NCBI RefSeq assembly: GCF_900163865.1
Contig: NZ_FUKU01000042.1
Span: 1-64,000 of the forward strand
Origin: Sphingobacterium sp. JB170
Lineage (GTDB): Bacteria; Bacteroidota; Bacteroidia; Sphingobacteriales; Sphingobacteriaceae
Direction: 5' to 3'
DNA length: 64,000 nucleotides
The translations under genes and the position numbers were made by a program. Shown piece by piece: positions 2,562-24,470 of this stretch. The notes under the pieces were generated by a model. The model was not told where the DNA came from and did no database searches. It saw only the letters and a list, made by a program, of their open reading frames with translations. How positions within the stretch are numbered: position 1 is the first letter of the stretch; the number at the start of each line of letters is the position of its first letter.

Positions 2562-4466
2562 CTATTTAGATGGCAGTTCGAGCAATTGACGAATTCGCTT
2601 CACAATATCAGTATTGTCCAAAAATCCTTGAAAAATTTCTGCTCCCGGACCATATGACATCAACGGAACGGGGATCCCGGTATGGTCTGTAGTAGCAAAA
2701 TTACCCAAGACCTGTCCTTTTTGTCTATTGGCATCTAATAGCACTAAACCTCCGGTTTCGTGATCTGAGGTGACGAGTACTAAGGTCTCGCCATTGAGAT
2801 CTGCATACTGCAATGCCTGGCCGACCAAGCGGTCAAAACTTAGATATTCTGTCACGGTAAACGGAATAGAATTACTGTGGCCGCCTCCGTCGATCTTCGC
2901 GCCTTCAACCATCAAAAAGAACCCTTTATCCGCACTTCTATCTTCTAAAAAAGATACCGAAGGACGAAAAACATCTTCAATCAAGCGATACGCTGTATGT
3001 GCTTCATTTTGGTCGTCACGAAGCTTATTCCATTCCCGATCTACCTGATCTTGGGCAAATACCAGCAGACGATCGCTTTTTGAACGTGCGATATGATCAG
3101 CCCCATCTACAATCTCTACATTTCTTTCTCGCAGTTGCTTAATCACCAAACTATCTGCAGTAGCAAATTCCTTAGCCGATCCACCAACCATTAAAGATAA
3201 TTTTGAATCTACGAGCTGAGCAGCAATACTATCTGCGTTATTCCTTTCGCGGACATGCGCGTAAAAAGCAGATGGTGTCGCACCCGTAATACCGTCATTT
3301 GATACTACTCCACCCACCATACCCGCCCTTGCGATCAAGTCGGGTAAATTGTCCACAGGCCTACCGGTTGTATCGACACCGATAAATCGGTTCCGAGTCT
3401 TTACCCCTGTTGCCAACGCACTTCCCCCTGCCGCTGAATCAGTGTGATAATTATCGGTAGAACTCGTGAATAGATAACCCGTATACGGCATATTCAATAC
3501 ATTCAACTGCCCTTTGTTAGCCATGGCGGCCGCCCAAAGTTGTGACAAGCCTGCTCCATCACTGATCAGCAAGATGATATTTTTCGGCCTTTCAACAGAA
3601 GCGTTGCTTTTCTTTTTGGGCAAATAGGTCTTGTAAAAGACATTATTCGAAAAGCTGTTCTTTGAATATGATCGCATGAATTCAGCGGCAGCCATAGGCT
3701 GATCGGTATTGATATAATCAATACCAAACTTCATCCATTCATACCATGTCGTCTTGGTATCTGGCGCTGCCCAAAATCTTACTTCCTTGCCAAGGCGATG
3801 TACCGAATCTATTGCATTTTTCACCGTTATCGAGTCCTGACGGGTCAACCGTCCCAAGCCATTCCACATCGATAATTGTGAAAACGGAGCACTAAAGAGT
3901 CCTATTCGCTCTAACTGCGCAGTCGTGTAATTTTTATTAAACTCACCATCAAAATAGAAGATATTATCATAGAGATGGAATTCTTCGGGTGTTGGACGAT
4001 TTCCACTAATGACGATTTTTACTGCTTTCGGATTATTTTTACTATCAAACAGATCTCTATAGGGCTGAAGCTTCTCCGATAACAATTTCAAGACCGCATG
4101 CCCGTCGGACTTGGGGTCAATCAAGAGCTGCAACCGTCCATTTTCGGGATACAAGAATCCATCGGTAGTATTTTCAAATGCTGCTATTATCGGTTCCAGA
4201 TACAACCTTTCAAAAGTATTCTCGGGCGTAATTTCCTCGTATTCATGTGCCACATATAAATTACGGTCTTTTAAAAAGAGATCGACTTCTATGGACCCAA
4301 ACCCCAATCCATACGCTAATGCAAACGGATGGTTTCTTGTATAATCATTATGTGAATGCAGGTTTTTCAGGTAGCTTGTTGGCTTAACCTGCGCAACGGT
4401 AGGTACAGCAATCTGGCTTGCGGCGCCTACAAGCGCCATAAAAAATACTTTTTTCATTCGAATCAT
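2562..4466 (-). CDS. Secreted two-domain phosphoesterase: GDPD/PI-PLC-like domain fused to PhoA-type alkaline phosphatase
   Basis: From the ATG at 4466 the product has 634 residues: a signal peptide ending near VAQ (about 27), a glycerophosphodiesterase/PI-PLC-like barrel (about 30-265) and an alkaline phosphatase domain (about 292-634). The first domain shows HSHNDY (37-42), E60/D62 in SIEVDLF and H74 in VAHE, as expected for GDPD active sites. The second shows D303 (SDGAG), nucleophile S344 in TDSAAGGS, E521/D526/H530 in VEGAKIDGGGH, D568/H569 in SDHE and H595 in TTDHTG, all PhoA metal or nucleophile positions. I infer stepwise release of phosphate from a phosphodiester in the periplasm or at the surface. 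A longer open frame back to 4583 overlaps susD and lacks a signal at its start. Last gene of the sigma-FecR-SusCD operon. Confidence 0.88.
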   Translation of the reverse strand: MIRMKKVFFMALVGAASQIAVPTVAQVKPTSYLKNLHSHNDYTRNHPFALAYGLGFGSIEVDLFLKDRNLYVAHEYEEITPENTFERLYLEPIIAAFENTTDGFLYPENGRLQLLIDPKSDGHAVLKLLSEKLQPYRDLFDSKNNPKAVKIVISGNRPTPEEFHLYDNIFYFDGEFNKNYTTAQLERIGLFSAPFSQLSMWNGLGRLTRQDSITVKNAIDSVHRLGKEVRFWAAPDTKTTWYEWMKFGIDYINTDQPMAAAEFMRSYSKNSFSNNVFYKTYLPKKKSNASVERPKNIILLISDGAGLSQLWAAAMANKGQLNVLNMPYTGYLFTSSTDNYHTDSAAGGSALATGVKTRNRFIGVDTTGRPVDNLPDLIARAGMVGGVVSNDGITGATPSAFYAHVRERNNADSIAAQLVDSKLSLMVGGSAKEFATADSLVIKQLRERNVEIVDGADHIARSKSDRLLVFAQDQVDREWNKLRDDQNEAHTAYRLIEDVFRPSVSFLEDRSADKGFFLMVEGAKIDGGGHSNSIPFTVTEYLSFDRLVGQALQYADLNGETLVLVTSDHETGGLVLLDANRQKGQVLGNFATTDHTGIPVPLMSYGPGAEIFQGFLDNTDIVKRIRQLLELPSK

Positions 4467-4516
4467 TTTTCTTGTCTTAGTTAACTTTTTCTTATTTACT
4501 AGATCGAATCTTTCTG

Positions 4517-6034
4517 CTACGGTTGGAACCAAACCTTTACATTTTGATCCGGCATCGTTCCGTCCATATGCTCCTGCACCCATTCGATTAGGCTCGGGTT
4601 GTTTTGCTCGTTATCGGAATACACATAACGTACGGGGATCTCTGCCCGCACTGAGGCTCCCGGTTTGATTTCGGGAATACCTGTTCTACGCCAGGAAGCC
4701 CACCCTTCGAAGCCATTTAGGAAGCTGTCCACAAAATATTGCTCAGCAATCATTGTAAGTCCTTTTTCGGATTGGTATTGATTTTCTGCATTTGACCAAT
4801 ATTCTTCCCGCTGATTATCACTGATATAAGGGTTTTGCGTTTGGTTTTGGCTGCCTACTTGTTTCCACTTATCAAAGGACGCCTCTACAGCCTCTTTATA
4901 TATTTCGTTAGCCTGCCCCGAAACTCCCATACCTCTTTGAATAGCTTCAGTTTTTAACAGCAACAGTTCGCTATAGGTCATTAAGAATGCGCGATTGTCT
5001 CGTCTTATGCGGCGTCCTACTACCGAAAAATCGCCATCGGTGTAATTTGTACGTTCGTATAATGCTTCCTGCTCGGCGGAACTCAACCCAGCGGTCTGTC
5101 CTCGGTATTCCAAACTCCCGTTTGCCAAAAACGAATTTCTAGTCGGCGCGGCGTAAATAAACAAGCGGGGATCCCCTCCTTTCACTAGCAATCCAATCAT
5201 TACATCACTTACTTTCGCATTATCCGAAAAGTCAACACCGCTTCCATCCGAAGAAGGATTCTGAATATACCAATTATAAAAATCGCTCGAATTATTATAT
5301 ACTAAAGTCGCACCGTCATCTACATTAGCGAATATGGGGTAACGGTCCGGATTGTTGAATATTTCCGATACTTGCTGCGACACATCTTTTTTTGCCGATT
5401 GCCTCATTAATATACGGATTTTTAGCGTGTTTGCGAATTTTCGCCACTTCTGAAGCTCGCCATCGTATAGAATATCTCGACTAATCGACGTTCCTTGGGG
5501 AAGTTCTGCCAAAAGATTGTTGGCTGAATCTAGGTCTGCTAACATCCGTTGATAAACTTCTTCTTGGGCCTGAAACTTCGGAAATTCCATTCCATCGATA
5601 TTTCCCATGCCGGCTTCGTCATATGGAATATCGCCAAATGCATCCGTAACCAGTGAGAGAACGTATACCTTATTGATATATGCCAGCGCGATGTATGCCG
5701 GCTGGTTGTTTTGCTCCGCTAGAAGTTTCATTTGATTAATATCTTTAATTAATCGTACTGCATTATTCCACTCCTCACGCCAGCTTGCTCCTGTGAGATT
5801 AAAGCGTCCATCGTTTTCACTAGTTCCACCAGGATAAGCCAGATGTTGGACGTACTGCCCAGCTCGACGACCACTTCCTACCATAGTATTTGCACTGCCA
5901 CTAATAATCGGTGGTAGCAGCATCTCGACGGGCACAACTGCCGGATTATTTGGATCTATATTAATTTCTTCGAAATTTTGGCAAGCCTGAAAGGATAGCA
6001 TTACAATTACCAGACAAACGAAATAATTTTTCAT
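4517..6034 (-). CDS. SusD/RagB-like nutrient-binding outer-membrane lipoprotein (SusD-like_2 type)
   Basis: 505 residues with a lipoprotein signal ending LSFQAC (Cys18). The following NFEEINIDPNNP and the motif AYINKVYVLSLVTDAFGDIP are typical of the SusD-like_2 branch, all-helical TPR-like proteins that sit as a lid on a SusC barrel and capture substrate at the cell surface. The start is fixed by the ATG at 6034, 28 bases after the susC stop, and the stop lies 50 bases before the phosphatase gene, so the three are almost certainly co-transcribed. The substrate cannot be read from the sequence; the downstream phosphoesterase suggests a phosphorylated compound. No defects seen. Confidence 0.93.
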   Translation of the reverse strand: MKNYFVCLVIVMLSFQACQNFEEINIDPNNPAVVPVEMLLPPIISGSANTMVGSGRRAGQYVQHLAYPGGTSENDGRFNLTGASWREEWNNAVRLIKDINQMKLLAEQNNQPAYIALAYINKVYVLSLVTDAFGDIPYDEAGMGNIDGMEFPKFQAQEEVYQRMLADLDSANNLLAELPQGTSISRDILYDGELQKWRKFANTLKIRILMRQSAKKDVSQQVSEIFNNPDRYPIFANVDDGATLVYNNSSDFYNWYIQNPSSDGSGVDFSDNAKVSDVMIGLLVKGGDPRLFIYAAPTRNSFLANGSLEYRGQTAGLSSAEQEALYERTNYTDGDFSVVGRRIRRDNRAFLMTYSELLLLKTEAIQRGMGVSGQANEIYKEAVEASFDKWKQVGSQNQTQNPYISDNQREEYWSNAENQYQSEKGLTMIAEQYFVDSFLNGFEGWASWRRTGIPEIKPGASVRAEIPVRYVYSDNEQNNPSLIEWVQEHMDGTMPDQNVKVWFQP

Positions 6035-6062
6035 ATTATATAATTTTATATTTTAAACTCAG

Positions 6063-9000
6063 CTAAAAAGCCACATTGATCGACATCCCAAAATTACGCA
6101 TAGATGGAAGGGACATTGCCTCTACGCCGACAAACTGCCCGTCGTATGCCGAAACTTCCGGATCTATATGCGGTACATCACTCCATAGCATTAAGTTTCT
6201 ACCGATAAGCGATACCGAAGCCGCTTTAATCGCCGTTCGTCGCAATATGCGTTGCGGCAACCTATAGCTTATCTTTACCTCTCTTAGTTTGAGGTAAGAG
6301 GCGTCGAATGTTGCAATACGGTCGTTATTATAGTATGCCTGCCAATAATCACGCACGGGGATGTCTACGCTGTTCGGCTCGCCCGTATCGATATCGATCC
6401 CTTCCCCAACGATTGTTCCCGCACCATTTTCATCCCGAAATGGTAATGACTCAGGAAGACTTCCTGCCCCAATTCCTTCGATAAATGTCCGGGAATGTAC
6501 TACACCTCCTTTTTGGCCTGCGAACAAGAAATTAAGATTCCAATTTTTATACCTCAAATCGTTAGCTATACTACCTATCCATTTCGGATTGACATTTCCC
6601 AGGTATCCCCAATCACCATTCTCTTCCTGCGGGAGTCCATTGCGGTGCACTAACTGATCGTTATCATAAATAAGATAATCGCCATAAAGAGAGCCCGACG
6701 ACCCGTCACCTTTTGTGTTTTCGGAGCGTAGCTCCAGGGATGCCCAACGTTCCAACTGACGAATACGGGAAATACCTTGATCTTCAGCTAGCGAGATCAC
6801 CTTATTTCGATTGAAAGAATAGTTGACGAAGATATCCCACGAAAAATTGTTGCTGCGTATCGGCGTTCCACTCACCATAAGCTCTAACCCGTGATTCGTC
6901 ATCTCACCCACATTCAACAGTTTGGTATCGTAACCCGCCGAAGGATTGAGCGTTACAGGGATAATTAGATCGGTTGTTCTACTTTTATAATAGGTGAGAT
7001 CCAACCCCAGTCGATTGCTAAAGAATCTAGAATCGAATCCAAATTCGTAGGACACTACCTTTTCGGGACGAATGTTCTCGTTAGGATAATTGTTATTATG
7101 AATAGCCACTGTCTCTCCCCCCCATCCTTGCGTCACCATGAAATTAGGCAGGGTACGATACGGTTCCAAATCTCTTCTTACCGAAGAAGCCGCACCCCTA
7201 ATTTTTAACATATTGAGTTGCTCGCTACGCCATCCAAACAGTTCAGAGGCGATTATACTCAGGGAGGCCGACGGATAGAAATAGGAATTATTGGCTTTTG
7301 GTAATGCGCTCGACCAGTCGTTGCGGCCAGTTATATCTAAAAAGACCATATCCCTATAACCGATCTGACTGGTTCCGTAAATGGAATTAATCTGTTTTTC
7401 CTGATAGGTGTTCCCCGCTAACAACGGTTCTCCGTTATTGGTCAGATTGTACACGTTCGGTATTGCTAGGCGCGGAGCAATTGCCCCTAAACGCTTTGAA
7501 ATCTGCGACATTAAGTTACCACCTATCGAAGCGTCGAAAGAAAAATCTGAATGCAAAACCGGACTATAGCTCAAGAGCATGTCGTGGTTGGACTCAATAA
7601 AATAGACATCGTCCTCCTGATAGTAACCATTCTTATACTGACTCGATGAGTTTGCATGTCTCATCGTCCGCTTATCATTGTAAAAATCTCTTCCCGAACG
7701 CACCATCAACTTAAGATCTGGGCGAATGTCGTATGTGGCCTTTACATTACCATATACGCGATCCCTATTATTACCATTCAGATTCTCGTAAGCGACAAAA
7801 TATGGGTTGTTCCAAATTGTACCATTCATATTAAAGATTGGAGAATTTTGTTCGGTATTGTTACTTTCCGGCCGCCAGTAATCTTTCAACGAATTCATAT
7901 CTAAGTTACGCGGCATATATAAAAACATTCGCATGACGGATTCATCATTCTTAGCGCCATAACTTGCCCGGTTATCACTCGAACTATTAACCCAGTTCAT
8001 CACCACGTCCAATCTTAAATTCGGGACAATCTGATACCCCGCATTCATTCCGAGCGAATTTCGGCTTAAATCCGTATTTGGTACCATACCAGATTGAGAC
8101 AGATTGGTATACGAAAAACGGTAATTGAGTTTGTCGTTGCTATTAGATATCGATAAACTGTTTGTAAAAGTTTTGCTAGTCTGCAGGAAATCTTTCAATT
8201 GATCACGATGTGCGACAAAAGGTGTTGCAATGCGCTCTCCGGTTGCCAGATCAATTGGCGAATCCCATTGCTTTATCAATTGACCATTCAAGGATGGGCC
8301 CCAGTTTTCCATAACGTTATCAAACTTTCCTGGATTGGTACCCGCACCATCCACATATTCATAGTTACCGTAGCGGCCCTGACCATACTCATATTGATAA
8401 TCAGGAAGTTTCAATGGTGTTCCAAAATCCACATGTGTATTAAAATTAATTCCAACGCCTTTCGCGTCTTTACCAGATTTAGTGGTAATCAATACAACAC
8501 CATTCGATGCACGTGAACCATACAATGCCGCAGCGTTAGGGCCTTTAAGTACCGAAATGCTTTCGATGTCATTCGGATCAATTTCCCCTGCCGCGTTTCC
8601 ATAATCAACCTCTCCTTCCCCTCCTGTAAAATTGGGGTTATTAAAATCCTGTCTTCCAGTAAAAGCTCGTGTCGATTGTTCGTTGTTATTACTCACCGGA
8701 ACACCATCAACCACGAATAGCGGTGAATTATTGTAATTATAGCCGCTCACAAAGTTCTGTCCTCGGATCTGTATATTGGACGAAGCTCCGATACCGCCAG
8801 AGGAATTTGTAATCTGTACGCCCGCCACGCGCCCGCTCAACGTGTTCACTAAATTAGTCTCATGTGCTTCCTGTATCTTATTCCCGTCCACCTGCTGTAC
8901 CGAAAACCCAACCGATTTCGATGCCCGTGTGATACCGAGCGCAGTTACGACAACCTCCTCAAGCGACGACGACTGTTCGATCAAACGAACGAGTAACGAA

Positions 9001-9317
9001 TTTTTGTCATCTGCACTTACCAGAAACTCGGTTTCGACGTGACTTTGGTAGCCAACACGTGAAAATACGATATTATAACGCCTGCCGACCCGTAGATTGC
9101 GTAGTTCAAAGACGCCATTCTCGTACGAGGCTGTAGAAACCGCACTGCGTTGTTCGTCTTTAGTTGAAACCGAAACCCCACTCAATGGATTCCCGTCCTG
9201 ATCGAGCACACGCCCCTTCACTTGTCCGGTTTGCTGCGCCTGTAGTTCTCCAACACAAAAGAACATATAAACTAGGCATAGCAATGATAAAAAATGATAA
9301 AATCTGTTTAGTTTCAT
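6063..9317 (-). CDS. SusC/RagA-like TonB-dependent outer-membrane transporter
   Basis: 1084 residues. A signal peptide (ends near LQAQQ, about 28) precedes a carboxypeptidase-regulatory-like beta-sandwich (about 32-115, GQVKGRVLDQDGNPLSGVSV), a TonB box-like EEVVVTALG, a plug domain with IQIRGQNFVSG, PLFVVDGVPVSN and the hallmark SISVLKGPNAAALYGSRASN, and a long beta-barrel ending in NVAF. It would import the SusD-bound ligand across the outer membrane using TonB energy. There is no separate STN domain in front, so contact with the FecR protein would have to use another surface or the SusC N-terminal extension. Middle gene of the ECF sigma-controlled operon; 37 bases from fecR and 28 from susD. 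Confidence 0.95.
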   Translation of the reverse strand: MKLNRFYHFLSLLCLVYMFFCVGELQAQQTGQVKGRVLDQDGNPLSGVSVSTKDEQRSAVSTASYENGVFELRNLRVGRRYNIVFSRVGYQSHVETEFLVSADDKNSLLVRLIEQSSSLEEVVVTALGITRASKSVGFSVQQVDGNKIQEAHETNLVNTLSGRVAGVQITNSSGGIGASSNIQIRGQNFVSGYNYNNSPLFVVDGVPVSNNNEQSTRAFTGRQDFNNPNFTGGEGEVDYGNAAGEIDPNDIESISVLKGPNAAALYGSRASNGVVLITTKSGKDAKGVGINFNTHVDFGTPLKLPDYQYEYGQGRYGNYEYVDGAGTNPGKFDNVMENWGPSLNGQLIKQWDSPIDLATGERIATPFVAHRDQLKDFLQTSKTFTNSLSISNSNDKLNYRFSYTNLSQSGMVPNTDLSRNSLGMNAGYQIVPNLRLDVVMNWVNSSSDNRASYGAKNDESVMRMFLYMPRNLDMNSLKDYWRPESNNTEQNSPIFNMNGTIWNNPYFVAYENLNGNNRDRVYGNVKATYDIRPDLKLMVRSGRDFYNDKRTMRHANSSSQYKNGYYQEDDVYFIESNHDMLLSYSPVLHSDFSFDASIGGNLMSQISKRLGAIAPRLAIPNVYNLTNNGEPLLAGNTYQEKQINSIYGTSQIGYRDMVFLDITGRNDWSSALPKANNSYFYPSASLSIIASELFGWRSEQLNMLKIRGAASSVRRDLEPYRTLPNFMVTQGWGGETVAIHNNNYPNENIRPEKVVSYEFGFDSRFFSNRLGLDLTYYKSRTTDLIIPVTLNPSAGYDTKLLNVGEMTNHGLELMVSGTPIRSNNFSWDIFVNYSFNRNKVISLAEDQGISRIRQLERWASLELRSENTKGDGSSGSLYGDYLIYDNDQLVHRNGLPQEENGDWGYLGNVNPKWIGSIANDLRYKNWNLNFLFAGQKGGVVHSRTFIEGIGAGSLPESLPFRDENGAGTIVGEGIDIDTGEPNSVDIPVRDYWQAYYNNDRIATFDASYLKLREVKISYRLPQRILRRTAIKAASVSLIGRNLMLWSDVPHIDPEVSAYDGQFVGVEAMSLPSMRNFGMSINVAF

Positions 9318-9354
9318 AGAAATTGTTATTGTTTGGTTTTTACTTGTGATTCAT

Positions 9355-10461
9355 TTACTTTATTTCATATGTTTCCTCTTCCGGTGCCCGTATGTTATTT
9401 TTTAAACGGATTAGCACTTGATTAGCGCTTTCATTTATATATTGCAGATCGTTAACTAGGCAGATGGTATTTAAAATCGTTGCCAAATCATCATGCGCAG
9501 AGAACTCACCGGTGAACGTCAAGTTGCGCGGCACCGCTGGATCTAGGATGATACGTGTATCAAATTTTTGAGCGACCTGACGAATTATTTCTGTTAAATC
9601 ACTTCTTACAAATCGAAGGTTTTTCGGTTGACCGGTAAGGCTATTGGATATATGCTGATCTACGATTTCTGATTGTGTATCCAGTTTTACTTTTACAGCA
9701 GGTTCCCTCACCATTATTTTACGGGTCTCATCTATATGTAACATCTCTCCAACGGTTAAGTACGTGTCCCGGATTCGCATTCTTGCCTCATTGGTGGAAC
9801 GGATCACCACGTTCCCTGATAACAGGTGTACCGTTGTATTCGCTAATTTTCTACCGTCAACAATAAACTCCGTACCGAGCGCTGTCGTGGTAAATCCATT
9901 TGCCTTCACTTCAAAGGGTAACAGACTGTCACGCTGCACGGCAAACTTTCCTTCGCCAATCAGCTCTATTTGGCGGTTTGCGCTACCATATTCATTATCG
10001 TAACGGATGGTACTATGTGGTGAGAGCACGATCGTGGAACCATCGCACAACACATATCGGACCGTGTCATACGACGAGGAAACCGTATAGATTTTGTTTG
10101 ACGCAATTAAGGTGTGAATAGCGTCTGTTGTATAGTCATTCGAATTCTGAAGGGTAAAGTAGGTGCCGAACGTACCGAGGATTACCAACACAGCAGCTGC
10201 AGCAATCCATTTATAAGGATAAATTTTTCTAACATGCCCGTGTATACCTGCTCGGCTGCGGATTGTCTGCAACAATTTGTAGGACTGATCCGAACTGAGC
10301 AATTCTTGGTCTTCTTGCTGCTCACCAAACTCCGATTTTAGCTGACGCTGTAAGTCCGACTGCTGGTTCTCAACTTTATCGAGTAAATCTTTCGCTTCGG
10401 CCTGTTTTAGCTTACCTTTCCAAAAAGAATGGATGCTATTTCGTATGTTGTTTCCCATCAT
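9355..10461 (-). CDS. FecR-type anti-sigma factor
   Basis: 368 residues: a cytoplasmic N-terminus (about 1-85) that would hold the sigma factor, one membrane helix (about 88-108, WIAAAAVLVILGTFGTYFTL), a FecR domain with YDTVRYVLCDGSTIVLSPHS and TTALGTEFIVDG, and a C-terminal DUF4974-type domain (LTEIIRQVAQKFDTRI, LTFTGEFSAHDDLATIL). It sits in the inner membrane and releases its sigma factor when the partner outer-membrane receptor is loaded. It lies 100 bases downstream of the ECF sigma gene and directly before susC, the standard trans-envelope signalling order of Bacteroidota. Two ATGs, 10461 and 10458, are equally possible. Confidence 0.94.
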   Translation of the reverse strand: MMGNNIRNSIHSFWKGKLKQAEAKDLLDKVENQQSDLQRQLKSEFGEQQEDQELLSSDQSYKLLQTIRSRAGIHGHVRKIYPYKWIAAAAVLVILGTFGTYFTLQNSNDYTTDAIHTLIASNKIYTVSSSYDTVRYVLCDGSTIVLSPHSTIRYDNEYGSANRQIELIGEGKFAVQRDSLLPFEVKANGFTTTALGTEFIVDGRKLANTTVHLLSGNVVIRSTNEARMRIRDTYLTVGEMLHIDETRKIMVREPAVKVKLDTQSEIVDQHISNSLTGQPKNLRFVRSDLTEIIRQVAQKFDTRIILDPAVPRNLTFTGEFSAHDDLATILNTICLVNDLQYINESANQVLIRLKNNIRAPEEETYEIK

Positions 10462-10561
10462 ACGTAAATACGACGGGTTAACTCAAACGGCAATAGGGTC
10501 AGTAGTTAACAAATTATTATTAAAACATTAATAACAAACCAACACACGCATACCGTTTGTT

Positions 10562-11176
10562 TTACAGATAGATATATGCACAGGCTAGAACTAGCACACT
10601 ATTCCCATAAGCATAGGAATTACTGGTCGCTATGTGTTGTTTAATACTCTTATTGGCCTGTTTAAGATATTCTGAGACCGAGTTTACCGATAAACCCAAC
10701 GTCTCTGCCACACGTTCTTTGGAATATCCTTCGTAACGGTGCAGGCGGAAAACCTCTTTCTTACGTGGAGATAATTTGTCGATAGCTTCTTCCAATAGTT
10801 GTAGCTGTCCGCGTAGGATTTCATCTTGCTCGTGCCCATTCTCTACATCTAGGTACAACGAATCGTAGTCCTCTACAAAATCGATATGGTCACGTAATTT
10901 CTTTTTGAGAAAGTCCATTGATTTATTAAAACTCACGACAAAAAGCCAGCTTGCAACGGATTTGTCTTTATCTATCTTATATCGATTTTGCCAAAGACTA
11001 AGGAAAACATCTTGTAAAATCTCTTGTGCATACTCAGGCGAGTGTACTATTTTTAAGATATTCGAATATATTTTTTGTTGGTGACGATGGTAAATTGCTG
11101 TGAATGATGATTCACATCCATGGTTTAGCTGGAGGAGTTCTTTGACTTCCCCAAATGATTTAAAATTATCTTTCAT
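10562..11176 (-). CDS. ECF-type RNA polymerase sigma-70 factor (FecI-like)
   Basis: 204 residues. Region 2 is recognisable as AIYHRHQQKIYSNILKIV followed by AQEILQDVFLSLWQNR and WLFVVSFNKSMDFL. Region 4 is LSPRKKEVFRLHRYEGYS with the helix-turn-helix AETLGLSVNSVSEYLKQA. Regions 1 and 3 are missing, as in ECF factors. The last 15 residues are hydrophobic (NSVLVLACAYIYL), an unusual tail that some Bacteroidota ECF factors carry. It would direct transcription of the downstream SusCD-phosphatase genes and probably its own operon once FecR releases it. Start ATG at 11176. Confidence 0.94.
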   Translation of the reverse strand: MKDNFKSFGEVKELLQLNHGCESSFTAIYHRHQQKIYSNILKIVHSPEYAQEILQDVFLSLWQNRYKIDKDKSVASWLFVVSFNKSMDFLKKKLRDHIDFVEDYDSLYLDVENGHEQDEILRGQLQLLEEAIDKLSPRKKEVFRLHRYEGYSKERVAETLGLSVNSVSEYLKQANKSIKQHIATSNSYAYGNSVLVLACAYIYL

Positions 11177-11983
11177 TGTTTTGCGTCATGCTAGACATTT
11201 ACCAGTACTTTCGACCGAAGCAAAAATATCCTTTTCAGCATCCGACCTACGGCTAATCCATATTATATTTTTGTTAATTCGATTATATACTATTTTTTAC
11301 ATTTCCTGATTGGCGTTTATAGGCTAACGCAATAAGAATACAGGATTGCTGAAATTTAAACGGTGTAGCACATAGCCCCCTTTAAACTATAATTGCCCAC
11401 GAATCATTTCTACAGATTTAAAACGTAGAATGTGACTAACTCGATTTTCAAATTAATAACAATCGCCGAAGCCTACATAAGACCAGAAAAAAAATTGATA
11501 CGATTCGACAAAATCTTGATCAAACAGTTCCACCCAGAGTCTGTACTTTAGCTCTTGGATATTTAAAGAAAGTAACACGAAATTTCCTTTCAAAAAATGC
11601 CACCGTTTGCAATATTAATGATATTGAACCAATTATAAATTTGCAGCGTAAATCGATGGAGCGATTTAGATCAAAACGTACCGCACGCGTACAACAATTC
11701 GATTATGAATATCCTCAATAACAGACGATTTAGATAAATACGTTAATAAATATACTTGTAACCAAAAAAGAAAGAACTGACTATGAAATTAAGCTGCTCA
11801 ATTCAGAAAGATACTTTCGCATTAATAACTTATATACATAACTGTATATCAATTAATATTATTTACGAGAAGACCACTACTATCTTAGGGTATTAAACCT
11901 CAACGCTTTGGCACACAACCATCGTACAAATAATACAAATTAACTAACCTTATTTAAACCGATGTATTTCGGACGAAACCTAT
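11177..11983. other. Long divergent intergenic region, with an open frame lacking a start codon
   Basis: About 800 bases separate the ECF sigma gene (minus) from the IPT/NHL gene (plus), so both promoters should be here. On the plus strand one frame stays open for about 95 codons, ending at a TAA at 11719-11721. It reads INNNRRSLHKTRKKIDTIRQ, later GYLKKVTRNFLSKNAT and MERFRSKRTARVQQFDYEYP. It has no early ATG and I cannot match it to a family; it is either chance or the remnant of a gene. The remainder is AT-rich with no hairpin I would call. Confidence 0.35.
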
Positions 11984-13366
11984 ATGTATATGCAAATTCA
12001 AAACAAAGTTAGGTGTTGGCACATCCATCGATTATTGCTCGGATTGATCGTGCTTACTTTAACGCAATGTAAAAAAGAGACGGTAACACAAGAAGGCGGC
12101 TTTGATGCTTCTAAACCGGTCTTAATCACAGACTTCTATCCAAAAGAAGGAGGAGTAGGAAATAACCTGATTATATATGGAGAAAATTTCGGAAACGACC
12201 CGACTAAAATTATAGTAACGATTGGAGGGAAAGTCGCAAAGGTTATTGGAATAAAGAATAATAGCCTTTATTGTACCATTCCCGAAAAAGCATATGACGG
12301 GGATATTCACATCGCAATTATCGATCAACAGAATAAAGAAGTAGCGAGTGCAATGTCGAAGGAGACATTCTCCTACAATAGAAAGCTGCTTGTATCTACC
12401 TTTCTCGGAAAATACTATCAAGTTTCAACAGATTTCCAAGAAAAAGAAGGGCCCTTCAATGATTGCGGTGCTTTTAAAGGGATAATGTGGCTCTCTTTTG
12501 ATCCAAAAAATAAAAACCATTTATATTTTACTGCCGATGGTAACAGTTCCCGTTTGATCGACTTCGAAAATGAATATGTCAGTTACTTTCGAACAGGATT
12601 TGGAAGAACTTCTATAATCAGTTGGAAAGCAGATGGCGATCAAGATATGGTAGTTGCTGACAACCATGCCAGTGACACTAAATATGGAAATTACATATTT
12701 AGCAGAAACTCTAATTTCCTCCAAAAGGAAGCTATTCCTGTTTATGCCCGTGGTGTCCAGGGAACAATGGTTCATCCAAACGGTGAGTTATACTATTCTA
12801 GATATAGAGCGGGTGACGTACGCCGATACGATTTTGAATCAAAAGAAGATAAACTTGTGTTTGCGAATCCTTATAGTGGCATCGCAGTACGCATGGTAAT
12901 ACACCCTTCTGGAGATTATGCTTATTTGATCGAAAATGAAAAGCATTTTATCATGCGAACAGACTATGATAGAGAGAAAAAGACCTTTAAGACGCCTTAC
13001 ACAATTTGTGGAGGTGCCGGAATATCTGGATATGCCGATGGAATAGGAACTAGCGCGAGATTGCATAATCCTGTACAGGGTGTTTTTGTGAAAAATTTAG
13101 AATACGACGCTGCTGGCGGTGACCAATATGATTTCTATTTCTGTGATTCTAACAATCATGCAATACGTATTTTAACCCCACAAGGGAGAGTCGGTACCTT
13201 TGCCGGACGCGGAAATAATGGCACGAGTGGATACGCAGATGGCGATTTACGAACAGAAGCTCGTTTTAATAAACCACAAGCAATTGCTTACGATGACGAA
13301 AGAGAGTGTTTTTACATTGGTGACACGAACAATTATCTCATCCGAAAAATCGCTAGAGAAGAATAA
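11984..13366 (+). CDS. IPT/TIG and NHL-repeat surface lipoprotein of a polysaccharide-type locus
   Basis: 460 residues. A lipoprotein signal (LIVLTLTQCKKE, Cys29) is followed by an IPT/TIG immunoglobulin-like domain (about 45-130, VLITDFYPKEGGVGNNLIIY, GENFG) and a C-terminal propeller with NHL-type repeats (GISGYADGIGTSARLHNP, GTSGYADGDLRTEARFNKP). Proteins of this layout sit beside SusC/SusD genes in Bacteroidota and are thought to bind glycan at the cell surface; this is family knowledge, not a demonstrated role. It is 23 bases before susC, so it leads the operon. The start at 11984 has a second in-frame ATG two codons later. Confidence 0.85.
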   Translation: MYMQIQNKVRCWHIHRLLLGLIVLTLTQCKKETVTQEGGFDASKPVLITDFYPKEGGVGNNLIIYGENFGNDPTKIIVTIGGKVAKVIGIKNNSLYCTIPEKAYDGDIHIAIIDQQNKEVASAMSKETFSYNRKLLVSTFLGKYYQVSTDFQEKEGPFNDCGAFKGIMWLSFDPKNKNHLYFTADGNSSRLIDFENEYVSYFRTGFGRTSIISWKADGDQDMVVADNHASDTKYGNYIFSRNSNFLQKEAIPVYARGVQGTMVHPNGELYYSRYRAGDVRRYDFESKEDKLVFANPYSGIAVRMVIHPSGDYAYLIENEKHFIMRTDYDREKKTFKTPYTICGGAGISGYADGIGTSARLHNPVQGVFVKNLEYDAAGGDQYDFYFCDSNNHAIRILTPQGRVGTFAGRGNNGTSGYADGDLRTEARFNKPQAIAYDDERECFYIGDTNNYLIRKIAREE

Positions 13367-13389
13367 TCAATCAAAGTAGAACAAAAATT

Positions 13390-16300
13390 ATGAAAATTAT
13401 TTTACTAGCATGTATCGCGTGCCTTGGTATCCCATTTAATGCCATAGCACAGGTAGAGATCGTTGTTCAAGGCACGGTAACAGATATAAATAAGCATCCA
13501 ATTAGTGGAGTAAGTGTTTCGATAAGTAACACTCCGGGTTTAGGTTCCATCACCGATATCGACGGCAAATACAGTCTAAAAGTTAATTCGTATCAAACAC
13601 TTGTTTTTACTTATTTGGGTTACCAAAAGCAAGAAATATTAGTGAAAACTCAAAAGGAGATAAACGTCGAATTGAAAGAATCAGATGCAAGCGTCTTAAA
13701 CGAAGTCGTGGTTACTGCTACAGGTGCGCAAAAAAAAATAGCTATAACTGGAGCAATTACCACCGTAGATGTGGAGCAGCTCAAATCAAACCCTTCTTCT
13801 TCCGTTGCTGATGGACTAGCAGGAGTCGTACCAGGTATAATGGCGATGCAAACTTCAGGTCGACCAGGGAGTATCTCAGAATTTTGGATACGGAGTATCT
13901 CGACATTCGGCGCTAGCAACGCTGCTTTGGTACTAATCGACGGATTTGAACGCGATTTAAATGAAATAAATGTGGAAGACATAGAATCGTTTTCTGTGTT
14001 AAAGGATGCATCCGCGACCGCAATTTATGGAAGTAGAGGCGCCAACGGCGTTATTCTGATTACAACCAAACGAGGTAAAGAAGGAAAAGTTAATATTCAT
14101 GCTAAAGTGGAAGGCTTTTATAACACTTTTACGAAACTTCCAGAATTTGTTGATGGTTATCAATATGCTTCTATGGCCAATGAGGCAAAAGTTGCGCGGA
14201 ATGAGCAGCCATTATTTTCATCTGGAGAGCTTGAAATACTTCGTCTGGGCTTGGATCCAGATCTGTTCCCCAATGTAGATTGGAGCGACCTTGTTTTGCG
14301 TGATGGAGCAAAAAGCCAGCGTAGTATTCTAAACATTAATGGAGGCGGAAAGACGGCGCGTTATTACATTTCGGGAAGTTACCAGAACCAACAAGGTATG
14401 TATAATGTGGACGATGCATTAAGAGATTATAACACGAACGCCAATTTCCGTAAATATACCTATCGACTTAGTGTCGATATGGATATCACAAAATCTACAT
14501 TGTTAACTGCTGGTATTTCAGGATCATTACGTAAACAAAATGACCCAGGCGTTGGAACTGATGCTATTTGGACAGCATTGATGGGATATAACGCGATAAC
14601 TGCTCCCGTTGTATACTCGGACGGAAAAATACCCGCCGACGATGATGGTGACGACGATCCCAATAATGGTGACGGCCGCATAAATCCATGGACTCAGGCT
14701 ACAATGACGGGCTACAATGAAAATTGGAGCAATAATATTCAAACGACATTAAGTTTAAACCAAAATTTAAATTTCCTGACGAAAGGACTTCGGCTCGTAA
14801 GTCGCTTTGGTTACGACACCTATAATAACAATTATATCAACCGATCTAAACGTCCAGAATTATGGGATGCGAACCGCTATCGAGATGCTGACGGAGAATT
14901 AATCTTTAAAAGAATATTTGAAGAGAAGGTAATGACGCAAACATCAGGTTCAGACGGTGAAAAACGAGAGTTTTTTGAATGGGAATTACACTATAACCGT
15001 AGTATCGGTGATCATCGTTTTGGAAGTGTAATTAAATATAATCAGCAGGCAAAAGTATTCACTCAAAATATCGGCACCGATCTTAAAAACGGTATTGCAC
15101 GACGTCTTCAGGGATGGGCAGGACGCGTAAATTACAATTGGAAATCCCGGTATTATATTGATTTCAATTTCGGATACACTGGCTCCGAAAATTTTCACAA
15201 AGATTACCGATTCGGCTTCTTTCCTGCAATCTCAGGTGCGTGGAATATTGGCGAAGAACCTTTCGTAAAGAATGCCGAGTGGATCAATATGCTTAAGGTT
15301 CGGTATTCCTACGGAAAGACTGGAAACGACAATTTAGGTGATGTTCGGTTTCCGTATTTGTATACGATCGAGCAAATGGATGGAGGCGGGTACAATTTTG
15401 GCGATTTTGACGCTTCCGATTCTTGGAGCGGAATGCGTTATTCGTCCGTTGCTGCTACTAACGTTTCTTGGGAAATTGCGACCAAACAAGATTTGGGAAT
15501 CGATTACTCGTTTTTCCAAGATAAGCTTAATGGGTCGGTCGATTATTTTACAGAACGCCGTGAAGGAATTTATATGAGTCGAAATTTTCTACCCGGATTC
15601 GTTGGGTTAGAAAACAACACATCCGCTAATGTCGGTATCGTCGAAGCACAAGGATTTGATAGCCATTTTTCTTTTAAACAAAAAATAAGACAAGTGGATT
15701 TGACTTTTCGCGGTAACATCACCTATAGTAAAAATGAAATTATAGAACGAGACGAAGAAAATACAATTTACGACTATAAACTCCAGGCAGGAAACCGAGT
15801 GAACCAGGCAAGGGGATTAATCGACTTAGGCTTATTTAAAGACTATGAAGACATTCGGAATAGCCCGACACAGACATTTAGCGAAGTGATGCCTGGTGAT
15901 ATTAAATACAAAGATGTTAATGGCGACGGTATTATTAACGACGATGATAGAGTAGCAATTGGCGCGACCACTAGACCGAACCTCACCTTTGGCTTTGGTA
16001 CGTCGGTCCGTTGGAATGGGTTGGACTTAAATATGCATTTTCAGGGCGTAGGGAAATCAACTTATTTTATTGACGGTTCATCGGTGTATATGTTTAGTTT
16101 GGGTGAAAATTGGGGAAATATCATGTCGGACATGGCAAATAGTAATCGGTGGATATTAGGTGAAAATGAAGACCCAAATGCTGACTATCCGCGTTTGACA
16201 TACGGCGCAAATGCAAATAATTATCGTAAGTCTACTTTCTGGTTGCGAGATGGTTCGTACATACGGTTAAAAACATTGGATTTAGGTTATTCTTTACCTC

Positions 16301-16470
16301 AAAAGCTGGTAAACAGAGCACATCTTAAACAGGTTCGCGTGTTTCTTATAGCCACCAATCTACTGACATTCACCAATTTTAAGCTCTGGGACCCAGAACT
16401 GGGAAGTTCAACGGGTAAGACTTACCCATTAAGTAGAACTTTTTCAGCAGGAGTCTCTATTAATTTATAA
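13390..16470 (+). CDS. SusC-like TonB-dependent transporter of the sulfatase locus
   Basis: 1026 residues: signal peptide ending at AIAQ (about 20), carboxypeptidase-regulatory-like domain (about 25-105, GTVTDINKHPISGVSVSIS), TonB box-like NEVVVTATG, plug with EFWIRSISTFGASN, ALVLIDGFERDLNEI and FSVLKDASATAIYGSRGAN, and a beta-barrel ending in GVSINL. It would import an oligosaccharide captured by its SusD partner. The stop is 11 bases before susD. The operon context (IPT/NHL lipoprotein before, SusD, DUF4973-like lipoprotein and sulfatase after) points to a sulfated glycan. No frame damage seen. Confidence 0.95.
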   Translation: MKIILLACIACLGIPFNAIAQVEIVVQGTVTDINKHPISGVSVSISNTPGLGSITDIDGKYSLKVNSYQTLVFTYLGYQKQEILVKTQKEINVELKESDASVLNEVVVTATGAQKKIAITGAITTVDVEQLKSNPSSSVADGLAGVVPGIMAMQTSGRPGSISEFWIRSISTFGASNAALVLIDGFERDLNEINVEDIESFSVLKDASATAIYGSRGANGVILITTKRGKEGKVNIHAKVEGFYNTFTKLPEFVDGYQYASMANEAKVARNEQPLFSSGELEILRLGLDPDLFPNVDWSDLVLRDGAKSQRSILNINGGGKTARYYISGSYQNQQGMYNVDDALRDYNTNANFRKYTYRLSVDMDITKSTLLTAGISGSLRKQNDPGVGTDAIWTALMGYNAITAPVVYSDGKIPADDDGDDDPNNGDGRINPWTQATMTGYNENWSNNIQTTLSLNQNLNFLTKGLRLVSRFGYDTYNNNYINRSKRPELWDANRYRDADGELIFKRIFEEKVMTQTSGSDGEKREFFEWELHYNRSIGDHRFGSVIKYNQQAKVFTQNIGTDLKNGIARRLQGWAGRVNYNWKSRYYIDFNFGYTGSENFHKDYRFGFFPAISGAWNIGEEPFVKNAEWINMLKVRYSYGKTGNDNLGDVRFPYLYTIEQMDGGGYNFGDFDASDSWSGMRYSSVAATNVSWEIATKQDLGIDYSFFQDKLNGSVDYFTERREGIYMSRNFLPGFVGLENNTSANVGIVEAQGFDSHFSFKQKIRQVDLTFRGNITYSKNEIIERDEENTIYDYKLQAGNRVNQARGLIDLGLFKDYEDIRNSPTQTFSEVMPGDIKYKDVNGDGIINDDDRVAIGATTRPNLTFGFGTSVRWNGLDLNMHFQGVGKSTYFIDGSSVYMFSLGENWGNIMSDMANSNRWILGENEDPNADYPRLTYGANANNYRKSTFWLRDGSYIRLKTLDLGYSLPQKLVNRAHLKQVRVFLIATNLLTFTNFKLWDPELGSSTGKTYPLSRTFSAGVSINL

Positions 16471-16481
16471 TCAACGACATT

Positions 16482-18560
16482 ATGAAAAATATATATTCAA
16501 TTTTAACTTTCGTCGGATTTACTTTATTAAGTACGGGATGTGCCGATTATTTGGACTCCGATTATCTATTTGATGAACGATTGACAACAGAAGACGCCTT
16601 CACGAACCCCGATTACGTCAATCGTTGGTTAGCGCGAACGTATTCCTTTTTAGGTAGTAACTATCTACAGGATGTAGCCAGTAAAAAAACAGTCCCTTTT
16701 AATTTCGCTGATGACATGTTCTTTGGCGACGAGAATAATGGTTACAAAAGATGGAAGAACGGGCAATATGATGAAGGTGGTTTGCACGGCGAAAGTAGTG
16801 AAATATGGAATACCGCGTATAAAGGAATTCGACAAGCGACTATTTTTCTTAATAATATCGATATAAACACAACATTTTCAGAATCAGAAATTGCTGCTCT
16901 TAAAGGTCAAGCGCGGTTTTTAAGAGCTTACTATTATTTTATCTTATTACGTACATATGGTCCAATACCAATAATTTCGGATGAGGGCATTGATTACACG
17001 AAAGAATATGATGAAATAGCGCAGCCACGAAATACGTACGAGGAATGTGCAAATTATCTTGCGAACGAACTTTCTAAAGCCGCTAAAGGACTTCCGCTGA
17101 AGCAAGGTATCCAAGAAATTGCGAGGCCGAGCCGAGGCGCAGCCTTAGCGCTTCGTGCCAGAGCTTTGTTGTATGCCGCAAGTCCGCTCGCCAATGGGAA
17201 AGCCCCTGGGGCGGTAGCAACGGCGATGATCAACGAAGATGGGACTCCCTTACTTTCGCCGACTTATGATGAATCTAAATGGGCAAAAGCGGCGGCCGCC
17301 GCAAAAGATGTAATAGATTTGGGGCAATATCAACTATTTGTAGCGTATAAAAAGGAAACAGGCGACATTGCATATCCCGCTACCGTTACACCTCCGCTAG
17401 ATAGTGAATTTTCCAATGAAAACTGGCCATCTGGCTGGCTTAATATTGACCCCTTTGAGTCATATCGGGCTTTATTTAATGGCACGGTGCCTGCGTTTCA
17501 AAATCCCGAACTGATATTTACACGTGGTCAAAACCAAGGTGGTGAAGGGATTAATGTATTGGTATTGCATCAGTTACCTAGGCTGGAAGGAAAAGGCTAT
17601 AATTCGCATGGTATGACACAGAAACAGGTGGACGCGTATTATATGAATGACGGAAGCGACATACCAGGAATGAACAGTATGTACGCCGGGCTAGATGCAT
17701 ACGAGGGACGTTATAATACGCAAGCCCGCAAGACAGGTTTTGTCACAAAAGATGAACTAAGTCTCTACCCTGAATTGGGACCATTAGGTATAGGCGTGAG
17801 TAAACAGTATGCACAGCGTGAGCCTCGATTTTACGCTTCGGTTTCTTATAATGGATCGACTTGGAATTTACTAAATTCAGAAAGCGTTAGAGACGAAAAA
17901 AGCAATGTTCAAATTTGGTATTATCGTGGAGATCCAAATGGGTATAAAAACACGACGTATTGGACACGGACTGGGATTGGAATAAAAAAATATATACATC
18001 CCGATGACATCAGTAATGTAGCCGTTACTGCCTATGATCAAAGTCGGATGACGAAAAAAGTTGATCCGGCAATCCGCTATGCCGAAGTTCTATTAATATA
18101 TGCTGAAGCGCTGAATGAATTAACAGGATCATTTAACATTCCATCGTGGGATGGCAGTAAAACACATTCTATCTCGCGCAATATCAGTGAAATGAAAAAC
18201 GGAATCCAACCAATCCGGATTCGATCGGGATTAGTAGATTATGCGAGCGAAGTATATGCCGACCAAAATAAATTTCGAAAAAAACTTAAAAGAGAACGCC
18301 AAATCGAATTATTTGCTGAGGGACATCGTTACTTTGATTTGCGTCGATGGACGGACGCCCCCGCAGAGGAATCGGCACAAGTTTATGGAAATGACGCATA
18401 CGCGACAAAAGCGCAGGCAGAACTTTTCCACACACCAATAGCCACCCCGTCATTGCCCTCTATTTTTACCCTCAAAATGTGGTTTTGGCCAATTAGCTTT
18501 AATGAACTTAAGCGCAATAAGTACCTGATTCAGAATCCAGGTTGGACAAATCCTGAATAA
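16482..18560 (+). CDS. SusD-like glycan-binding lipoprotein of the sulfatase locus
   Basis: 692 residues, long for SusD proteins. The lipoprotein signal ends at LSTGC (Cys20). Family marks include LKGQARFLRAYYYFILLRTY, PSRGAALALRARALLYAAS and the C-terminal RERQIELFAEGHRYFDLRRW followed by PGW near the end (IQNPGWTNPE). It is a surface-exposed TPR-like protein that binds glycan over the SusC barrel. It starts 11 bases after susC and ends 18 bases before the next lipoprotein gene, so the cluster is one operon. Confidence 0.94.
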   Translation: MKNIYSILTFVGFTLLSTGCADYLDSDYLFDERLTTEDAFTNPDYVNRWLARTYSFLGSNYLQDVASKKTVPFNFADDMFFGDENNGYKRWKNGQYDEGGLHGESSEIWNTAYKGIRQATIFLNNIDINTTFSESEIAALKGQARFLRAYYYFILLRTYGPIPIISDEGIDYTKEYDEIAQPRNTYEECANYLANELSKAAKGLPLKQGIQEIARPSRGAALALRARALLYAASPLANGKAPGAVATAMINEDGTPLLSPTYDESKWAKAAAAAKDVIDLGQYQLFVAYKKETGDIAYPATVTPPLDSEFSNENWPSGWLNIDPFESYRALFNGTVPAFQNPELIFTRGQNQGGEGINVLVLHQLPRLEGKGYNSHGMTQKQVDAYYMNDGSDIPGMNSMYAGLDAYEGRYNTQARKTGFVTKDELSLYPELGPLGIGVSKQYAQREPRFYASVSYNGSTWNLLNSESVRDEKSNVQIWYYRGDPNGYKNTTYWTRTGIGIKKYIHPDDISNVAVTAYDQSRMTKKVDPAIRYAEVLLIYAEALNELTGSFNIPSWDGSKTHSISRNISEMKNGIQPIRIRSGLVDYASEVYADQNKFRKKLKRERQIELFAEGHRYFDLRRWTDAPAEESAQVYGNDAYATKAQAELFHTPIATPSLPSIFTLKMWFWPISFNELKRNKYLIQNPGWTNPE

Positions 18561-18578
18561 TAGTTTTAATTTTTTGTA

Positions 18579-19580
18579 ATGAAAAAAAGTATTTATCTAG
18601 TTTTTTTAATGATTGCAACCGCAGGATGCGTTGTATCATGCAATGATGAGTGGAAAGAAGAACAGTTCGTCCAGATGCCTTCATTCAAAGCAAGCCCCAA
18701 TACCGAAGGTGTAACGTTCTGCTACGTCCGATATAATGCGGCAGGGAAAATGCGATTTGATCTCCCAATAATTGTGAGTGGTTCGACACCAAATTCCATT
18801 GATCGAACTATTCATCTAGGATTGGATACGGATACTTTGGCAAAATTAAACCAAGAGCAATATGGCCATCGCAGCGAATTATATTTCAAACAGTTAGAAA
18901 GTAAATATTATAGTATGCCACTTGTCGTTGATGTTCCGGCAAATGTAAGCACCGTCACTGTGCCCATCGATTTCACATTAGGAGATTTAGATCAGTCAGA
19001 CAAATGGTTGTTACCTTTACAGATTTTAGATGAACCTAACTACAACTACATCGCAAATCCTCACAAACACTACCGCAGAGCAATGCTGCGTATCACACCA
19101 TTTAACGACTATTCCGGGGAATATGGTGGAACATTGTATAAGATATATCTTGAAGGAGATAATGAGCCGCTTACATTAAATACCCACCGTACATTTGTTG
19201 TGGATGAACAAACATTATTTCTCTATGCCGGTCTCAGAGATATAGACTTTCTCGACCGCAAAAATTACAAGGTGTTTATCAAGTTTACGGACGACAAGAT
19301 CGATCTTCAAAAGAAAAAATTAGAAATATGGAGTGATAATTCGGAAAATAACAAATTTAAAGTAGGAGAACAGCAATCTTATTATACCATTGATGAGGCA
19401 TGGGACGCTCAGCGTCCCTATATGAAGCACGTTTATATCACCCTATATCTTTCCTATGAGTTTGAAGATTATACTGCAATTCCTGGCCAACGACTAAAAT
19501 ATCGCGTAGAGGGGACATTATCCATGCAACGTGATTTGAATACATTAATACCAGATGAAGATCAGCAAATTCAATGGTAA
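18579..19580 (+). CDS. Surface lipoprotein, DUF1735/DUF4973-like (putative glycan-binding protein)
   Basis: 333 residues with a lipoprotein signal (IATAGCVVSC, Cys17 or Cys21). The N-terminal half looks like a DUF1735/BT_3987-type beta-sandwich (FCYVRYNAAGKMRFDLPIIV, then LAKLNQEQYGHR and VPIDFTLGDLDQSDKWLLPL). The C-terminal half (YSGEYGGTLYKIYLEGDN, DIDFLDRKNYKVFIKF, LKYRVEGTLSM) fits DUF4973. In other Bacteroidota such proteins follow SusD as surface glycan-binding subunits. The exact ligand is unknown. It is the last tightly linked gene of the cluster; a 1.4-kb gap holding the opposed regulator separates it from the sulfatase. Confidence 0.8.
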   Translation: MKKSIYLVFLMIATAGCVVSCNDEWKEEQFVQMPSFKASPNTEGVTFCYVRYNAAGKMRFDLPIIVSGSTPNSIDRTIHLGLDTDTLAKLNQEQYGHRSELYFKQLESKYYSMPLVVDVPANVSTVTVPIDFTLGDLDQSDKWLLPLQILDEPNYNYIANPHKHYRRAMLRITPFNDYSGEYGGTLYKIYLEGDNEPLTLNTHRTFVVDEQTLFLYAGLRDIDFLDRKNYKVFIKFTDDKIDLQKKKLEIWSDNSENNKFKVGEQQSYYTIDEAWDAQRPYMKHVYITLYLSYEFEDYTAIPGQRLKYRVEGTLSMQRDLNTLIPDEDQQIQW

Positions 19581-19706
19581 AAAATAGTAATTTCATACGT
19601 TTAAAGGATACTTCCAATTTGTATACTTTTATCGTATGGAATTACTGCAACATAAAATGACAAGACAGGCTAAAAAAGGATAGCGAAATATTAGGTCTTC
19701 GAAATT

Positions 19707-20486
19707 TTATCGACGATATTCAGTTTCGCGTTGAAGAGAATTGAAATATTCTCGTGGGCCAAGTTTAAAATACCGTTGAAAGTTTTTCGTGAAAACGCTT
19801 TGTGACCTATACCCGACCATAGTTGAAATCTCATACAATGAAAACTCATTTTCGGCAATGAGCGTGACCGCCCTTTTTAATCGCTTGATATCGATCAATT
19901 CCTTTGGTGACAGCGAGGATAGAGATTTTATTTTCCGATAAAATGTCGGCCGGCTCATGTGCATATGATAGGCTAGCAAATCAATATCCAAATGCGGCTC
20001 TTTCATATTTTTACATATATAGTCATCTAACTTTTTAAGAAAAGACTCATCACCCTTGGATAGTGCGATTACCCTTACATCCTCGAACGGAGAATTTGCA
20101 ATATGATCCTTTATTTTGACACGATTACTAAGCAAATTTGCCATTTGTGTTCGTAATAAACGTTGAGAAAAAGGCTTTTGTATATACGCGTCGGCTCCAT
20201 TTTCTAGGCCTTCAATTTGGGCGTTAAATGTATTTCTAGCCGTCAACAATATAATTGGAATATGACAGTATTTAATATCTGTTTTAAGAATTTTACATAA
20301 TTCAAACCCGTCAACTCCCGGCATCATCACGTCTGAAATGATTAGATGAACAATCTCTTTATTTAATAAAGACAAAGCATTTTCTCCGTTTTCTGCGAGA
20401 TGTAATTTGTATGTATCTTCTAAAACGTCAGAAAGTAGTTCAAGTATTTCTTTATTATCATCAATAATTAAAATCGATTCTTTCAT
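19707..20486 (-). CDS. Response regulator with AraC-type output domain, no linked kinase
   Basis: About 259 residues from the ATG at 20486 (an ATG at 20510 would add 8). The receiver domain (1-120) shows ILIIDDNKE with the acidic pair, the phosphoacceptor aspartate in LIISDVMMPGVDGFE, T in IILLTARN and K in GADAYIQKPFS. The C-terminal AraC domain (about 150-255) has LDIDLLAYHMHMSRPTFYRK and FSLYEISTMVGYRSQSVFTK, then YFKLGPREYF. This is the layout of the last two domains of a hybrid two-component system, yet the sensor and kinase parts are not in the 490 bases upstream. It lies convergent with the DUF4973-like gene and divergent from the sulfatase, so it probably controls this locus, but its signal input is unclear. 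Confidence 0.87.
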   Translation of the reverse strand: MKESILIIDDNKEILELLSDVLEDTYKLHLAENGENALSLLNKEIVHLIISDVMMPGVDGFELCKILKTDIKYCHIPIILLTARNTFNAQIEGLENGADAYIQKPFSQRLLRTQMANLLSNRVKIKDHIANSPFEDVRVIALSKGDESFLKKLDDYICKNMKEPHLDIDLLAYHMHMSRPTFYRKIKSLSSLSPKELIDIKRLKRAVTLIAENEFSLYEISTMVGYRSQSVFTKNFQRYFKLGPREYFNSLQRETEYRR

Positions 20487-20510
20487 ATTCGTACATTTTT
20501 CAACACCCAT

Positions 20511-21088
20511 TTAATTTCGAATTCCGCTAATTGTCTTGGAATGTCGTCAACTCCGTGTCGATTTCTATTACCTATCCTGTAAGCAACAAATCAAACGTCC
20601 GCAATCTAAAACTTAAGTAAAAGAACTACTGTTTTGTAATCGCCACAAAAATGATTCACCGCCAAGCTTTCGCTAAGACCCGTTAAATTACCTGTTTTAT
20701 GAAATGATATATCAGGCTCATAATTAGTTAAGACAACTATAGGCAAACTTTACATGCCTATTTACTAATATTCGTCTCGTTAGATAAACTTAATAAAAAT
20801 ATTCTTTTCCCCATAATCATCAAGATAATAATACTTTGATAGACAAACACCATAACAAACACACTATCAATATCATACGATTCGAATTTATTCGCAATCA
20901 GCATGTTTTTGAGACAAATCAACAAGAATTTGAATAATTGAAACAACAATAGTTCATCTTGAACTCGTTAACTTTGTTAATCGAGCGATTGAATTCAAGT
21001 GCGCAGCCGATCCACACGTATAGATCGGCACAAGCGGTCAATTAATCGAACATTAACTACTTTTGATCACGTACAATCTACAGTCAAT
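20511..21088. promoter_or_regulatory. Divergent control region between AraC-type regulator and sulfatase
   Basis: AT-rich, with no convincing gene; a minus-strand 63-codon frame at 20758-20949 is hydrophobic low-complexity sequence without recognisable relatives. TAACTTTG at 20969-20976 matches the Bacteroidota -7 box (TAnnTTTG) and would start a sulfatase transcript near 20983. The expected TTG 19 bases further upstream is absent, which fits a promoter that needs an activator such as the adjacent AraC-type regulator. Confidence 0.4.
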
Positions 21089-22678: not shown

Positions 22679-22702
22679 ACGATAAAAACTAAGTATAATG
22701 TA

Positions 22703-24460: not shown

Positions 24461-24470
24461 TGAAGTATGT

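Follow-up and report, generated by a model that had tools for sequence, protein, structure and literature searches.

A probable phosphate-starvation operon of the PUSII type with a GDPD-PhoA fusion phosphoesterase in Sphingobacterium sp. JB170

We analyzed a stretch of 64,000 nucleotides (the window) from the 4.4 Mb genome of Sphingobacterium sp. JB170 (contig NZ_FUKU01000042.1, positions 1 to 64,000). Five co-directional genes occupy positions 2562 to 11176 on the minus strand. Read in the order sigma factor, FecR, SusC, SusD, and fusion phosphoesterase, they are separated by gaps of 100, 37, 28, and about 50 bp:

10562 to 11176, minus strand: ECF-type sigma-70 factor (204 aa; PF04542, Sigma70_r2; PF08281, r4_2)
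9355 to 10461, minus strand: FecR-type anti-sigma factor with FecR and FecR_C (STN-like) domains (368 aa; PF04773, PF16344)
6063 to 9317, minus strand: SusC/RagA-type TonB-dependent transporter (1084 aa; TIGR04056, 595 bits; TIGR04057)
4517 to 6034, minus strand: SusD-like surface lipoprotein of the SusD-like_2 family (505 aa; PF12771, E=9e-78)
2562 to 4466, minus strand: secreted GDPD-like/PhoA-type fusion phosphoesterase (634 aa; PF13653 and PF00245; AlphaFold2 pLDDT 91.5)

An earlier note on this DNA had described five genes in line with short gaps. Open reading frames and domain profile matches confirmed that layout, and only the start of the fusion gene was corrected. Translation of this gene probably begins at the ATG at 4466 (alternative ATG at 4457), which yields the signal peptide MKKVFFMALVGAASQIAVPTVAQ. 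The start at 4583 given by the ORF tool was rejected as spurious because it overlaps susD and conceals the signal peptide. The sigma protein scored 115.6 bits against TIGR02985, slightly below the cut-off of that model. A lipobox (SFQAC) was found in the SusD-like protein by reading its sequence.

Just downstream of the operon, in the region from 1 to 2281, a gene for a DDE transposase (18-1004) is accompanied by a short ORF (1715-2281) whose match to a RecG-like family is confined to the C-terminal part of that family. The transposase and the partial RecG-like ORF suggest a rearranged border beside the operon. Elsewhere in the window (11984-24541 and 57118-59415) there are more SusCD sets, accompanied by a TIG-domain protein, a DUF4973 protein, and a sulfatase, as well as a separate GH92 gene.

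The last gene of the operon codes for a protein with two domains:

3603 to 4385, minus strand: N-terminal GDPD/phospholipase-D-like TIM barrel, residues 28-288 (PF13653, structural model, conserved residues)
2565 to 3602, minus strand: C-terminal PhoA-type alkaline phosphatase domain, residues 289-634 (PF00245, E=2.6e-46; TAB5 match)

We examined the active sites in an alignment of 51 fusions drawn from several families. In the barrel, H37, H39, N40, D41, E60, D62, H74, D117, and K119 were invariant or missing from at most one row. Among these, H37, E60, D62, H74, and D117 supply the catalytic histidines and acidic metal ligands of the GDPD/PI-PLC-like superfamily, with individual roles that we assign by analogy. 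In the phosphatase half, D303, S344, T397, R408, E521, D526, H530, H569, and H595 were invariant, and D568 was kept in 50 of the 51 sequences. The alignment and the fold show that the two-metal site, the nucleophilic serine, and the active-site arginine of the PhoA class are all present. Since the catalytic residues are kept throughout the alignment, both halves are likely active, and this conservation bears out the earlier description of a GDPD-PhoA fusion with both active sites intact. At positions equivalent to D153 and K328 of E. coli PhoA, the window fusion carries glycines, which may open the active site.

The phosphatase half is nearest to the Antarctic enzyme TAB5 by sequence and by fold (Foldseek E about 1e-31). 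PF13653 is the sole family match in the N-terminal half, and the AlphaFold2 model of this region (pLDDT 92.6) is a TIM barrel whose top structural matches are mostly GDPD/PLD enzymes. Because it shares only 10-18% identity with these GDPD/phospholipase-D-like matches, we regard the barrel as a distant subfamily.

The divergence of the barrel bears on an alternative in which the locus serves a broad phosphomonoesterase: the PhoA half alone would be catalytic, and the GDPD-like half would be binding or structural. PF03009 matches 31 of 49 members of this highly divergent domain at E<=0.1, the structural matches reach a TM of about 0.5, and by inspection the usual PENT glutamate motif is absent near the N-terminus of the barrel. 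However, H37, H39, E60, D62, H74, D117, and K119 are kept in essentially all 51 fusions and follow one another as H..ExD..H..DxK, which is the residue order of metal-dependent GDPD/PLD enzymes. We therefore consider a purely structural or binding barrel unlikely. Our literature searches, which mostly missed subscription journals, found no paper on an assayed GDPD-PhoA fusion.

Variants of the fusion were also seen. A GDPD-like barrel of the same subfamily (G205:C2:1197397-1198104) lies inside an open frame of 1098 aa with no PhoA-domain match and is perhaps part of another fusion type. The best matches to the fusion in two loci (L005 and L008) were flagged with an in-frame stop. The L008 match covers residues 15-519 only and may be a degraded copy.

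We surveyed the distribution of the fusion and its gene context. When each species was represented by one genome, a scan for relatives yielded at least 554, and the best 80 were kept. Among these best 80, the nearest named relative of the fusion comes from Sphingobacterium corticibacterium, with 78% identity. Of 296 sampled genomes from the phylum, about 20 encode a full fusion and another dozen encode the barrel but no full fusion. A susCD pair immediately precedes the fusion gene in 51 of 81 loci, and 33 of these 51 also have sigma and/or FecR genes. The recurrence of the SusC-SusD-fusion adjacency in 51 of 81 loci exceeds chance. The fusion gene has no susCD directly before it in 30 of the 81, which indicates that the transporter is not required for the enzyme to work. 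A maximum-likelihood tree of the enzyme (quick mode) resolved two clades, one of 18 rows that includes the window and has PF12771-type susCD where present, and one of 63 rows with the PF07980 type. The clades split by SusD family, and we therefore find one enzyme family paired with two different SusD families.

A candidate regulatory element lies upstream of the operon:

11260 to 11277, minus strand: PHO-box-like tandem repeat TTAACA-N5-ATAATAT (TTAACAAAAATATAATAT), 84-101 bp upstream of the sigma start

When the window was aligned with five named orthologous loci, this element was the single conserved block upstream of the sigma gene. The pattern TTAAYAN5WTAAYAT has 18 exact sites in the genome, the operon site among them, compared with 4 for the reversed pattern. 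In the same genome, the motif is found upstream of the genes for a PhoB-like regulator (which scores under the curated PhoB cut-offs), DUF47-pit, polyphosphate kinase (ppk), and exopolyphosphatase (ppx). Across the genus, the exact motif is present at all 30 of 30 DUF47-pit genes and, with at most 3 mismatches, at 30/30 phoB and 26/30 ppk genes; shuffles mostly gave 4 or more mismatches. We then used a scoring matrix trained on the phoB, pit, and ppk upstream sets alone, with no fusion operon in the training. It scored at least 10 bits at 45 of 77 fusion operons versus 41 of 437 control upstream regions (rank test p=9e-18, with related species counted as independent). The window element itself scores 16.3 bits with this matrix.

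Other analyses of the motif gave less. Exact TTAACA repeats peaked only weakly at a spacing of 11 bp (4 of 81 loci); we therefore base the argument on the trained matrix and the conservation among orthologues. An initial motif of three half-sites with two mismatches allowed had 50 genomic matches versus 40 for its reversed control and was abandoned for lack of specificity. In the JB170 genome, the motif also occurs upstream of an RbtT/DalT-type transporter gene, tsf, a TonB receptor gene, and a gene for a beta-lactamase-fold lipoprotein (L171, L172, L176, and L178). Some of these genes, such as tsf, have no evident link to phosphate, so the specificity of the motif is imperfect. We read the conserved motif as a candidate PHO box that the PhoB-like regulator may bind. 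Literature searches, mostly outside subscription journals, turned up no report of a PHO box of the TTAACA type in Bacteroidota.

The genes next to the fusion in its relatives point to the kind of substrate. PI-PLC-X genes adjoin it in 14 loci, mainly from a single Chryseobacterium lineage, and the other neighbours include PLC-type Phosphoesterase genes, calcineurin-like phosphoesterases (Metallophos), and one GDPD gene. The recurrence of these PI-PLC, PLC, GDPD, and Metallophos neighbours favors a lipid- or inositol-type phosphodiester as the substrate.

A rival explanation is a glycan utilisation locus. The target would be a phosphodiester-bearing glycan (phosphomannan or GPI-like) that is sensed by sigma/FecR, with SusCD importing carbon and the fusion removing a blocking phosphate. 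Loci that sense glycans are typically controlled by sigma/FecR, the window contains other SusCD pairs and a GH92, and glycoside hydrolase genes (fucosidase, GH92, GH2, or GH43) adjoin a minority of the related operons. However, no glycoside hydrolase was identified in the window operon or in the operons of its close orthologues, a PHO-box-like element lies upstream, and the Flavobacterium counterpart is induced by phosphate depletion only. This explanation is thus decidedly improbable.

Scavenging of teichoic-acid or nucleic-acid fragments rather than lipid headgroups is very unlikely: GDPD-like enzymes can cleave polyglycerolphosphate chains, but the recurring neighbours are lipid- or inositol-type phosphodiesterases, and among the neighbours examined we identified neither a nuclease nor a teichoic-acid gene. 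The earlier note had suggested that the operon could strip phosphate from a diester, such as a glycerophosphodiester or a piece of teichoic acid, and take up the rest. Import and dephosphorylation, probably of a phosphodiester, are supported by the residues, the folds, the PHO-box-like element, and the neighbours. The teichoic-acid link was considered and dropped, with no such neighbour among the loci examined.

We conclude, with a probability of roughly 0.8, that the five genes form a PUSII-type phosphate-starvation operon that would combine PhoB-like control, diester import, and stepwise dephosphorylation. In this soil-type bacterium, the operon very probably imports small phosphorus-containing molecules at low phosphate, and its two-in-one enzyme frees the phosphate. 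The gene order, the domains, the conserved catalytic residues, the conserved PHO-box-like element, and the phosphoesterase neighbours were computed here. Low-phosphate induction is known for the equivalent Flavobacterium genes. Under phosphate limitation, the PhoB-like regulator would become active and bind the PHO box, jointly switching on the sigma, FecR, SusC, SusD, and fusion genes. The SusC/SusD proteins, a PusCD pair, would capture organic phosphate at the cell surface for TonB-energised import. The captured compound is most likely a small phosphodiester, for example a phospholipid headgroup. In the periplasm, the GDPD-like domain would convert the diester to a monoester, from which the PhoA domain would then free inorganic phosphate.

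The sigma and FecR proteins of the operon present a puzzle. Classical surface signalling requires an N-terminal signalling domain on the receptor, which contacts the anti-sigma factor (PMC11637429). In the window SusC, CarboxypepD_reg starts at residue 32, and there is no N-terminal signalling (STN) extension. SusC proteins of the window clade are 1084-1085 aa long, compared with at least 1114 aa for the sigma/FecR-linked SusC proteins of other named loci, and those that we inspected contain an STN-like N-terminal region. The extension is also absent from the SusC proteins of L056-L060 and of operons from the genus Sphingobacterium (L044-L046, L050, and L051). Either another partner signals to sigma/FecR, or the PHO box now mainly drives the pair. 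We tentatively suggest, as a possibility that we rate well short of even odds, that loss of the signalling domain from the transporter severed sigma/FecR from surface signalling in the window clade and that the phosphate regulator captured the pair. Import would then be driven by starvation, and the fusion would take the imported diester fully to phosphate in one protein.

Research on SusCD systems has dealt mostly with glycans. Here, one enzyme, paired with two SusD families in separate clades, appears as part of phosphorus scavenging in Sphingobacteriaceae, Chitinophagaceae, and Weeksellaceae. The candidate PHO box offers a way to test phosphate control in this phylum, and the window clade provides a natural example of sigma/FecR whose receptor has no signalling domain.

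We compared the operon and its proteins to known systems. The closest solved relative of the C-terminal domain is the TAB5-type alkaline phosphatase (PDB 2iuc, 31% identity), but the fusion carries an additional N-terminal barrel. That barrel shares the TIM fold and the H, ExD, H, DxK pattern with GDPD/sphingomyelinase-D-like enzymes (PDB 3no3, 1zcc, and 1xx1), although it is distant from them (10-18% identity, TM about 0.5). As in FecI/FecR/FecA signalling, an ECF sigma factor and a FecR protein (FecR_C) adjoin a TonB-dependent transporter, but in the window clade this transporter lacks a signalling domain at its N-terminus.

The closest comparison is with the phosphate utilization systems of F. 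johnsoniae. SusC/SusD systems for phosphodiesters had been called little described in the earlier note, which is not borne out: PUSI-IV and PusCD had already been described in 2020, and PUSII shares the architecture of the window operon (PMC8115612). PUSII (Fjoh_3249-3252) consists of the periplasmic fusion PhoA1 (pf00245+pf13653), PusD2, PusC2, and the FecR-like regulator Fjoh_3252. Its genes are strongly induced under phosphate depletion, and its authors predicted diesterase activity for PhoA1 (PMC8115612). The window operon matches it in having a FecR-like regulator, SusC, and SusD alongside a fusion of the same two Pfam domains at consecutive loci, and thus belongs to a kind of system that has already been described. 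Two features set it apart. The window SusD belongs to PF12771 whereas PusD2 belongs to PF07980/PF14322, and the STN/FecR_C-like extension annotated at the N-terminus of PusC2 (pf16344) is missing from the window SusC. The main text of the PUSII paper does not mention a PHO box (PMC8115612). Because the window SusD is not of the PusD2 type and the enzyme tree splits by SusD family, we regard the operon as a variant that works like PUSII rather than as an orthologous PUSII. Beyond the known PUSII, it contributes a transporter of a variant type, a candidate PHO box supported across the genus, and a sigma/FecR pair whose receptor has no signalling domain.
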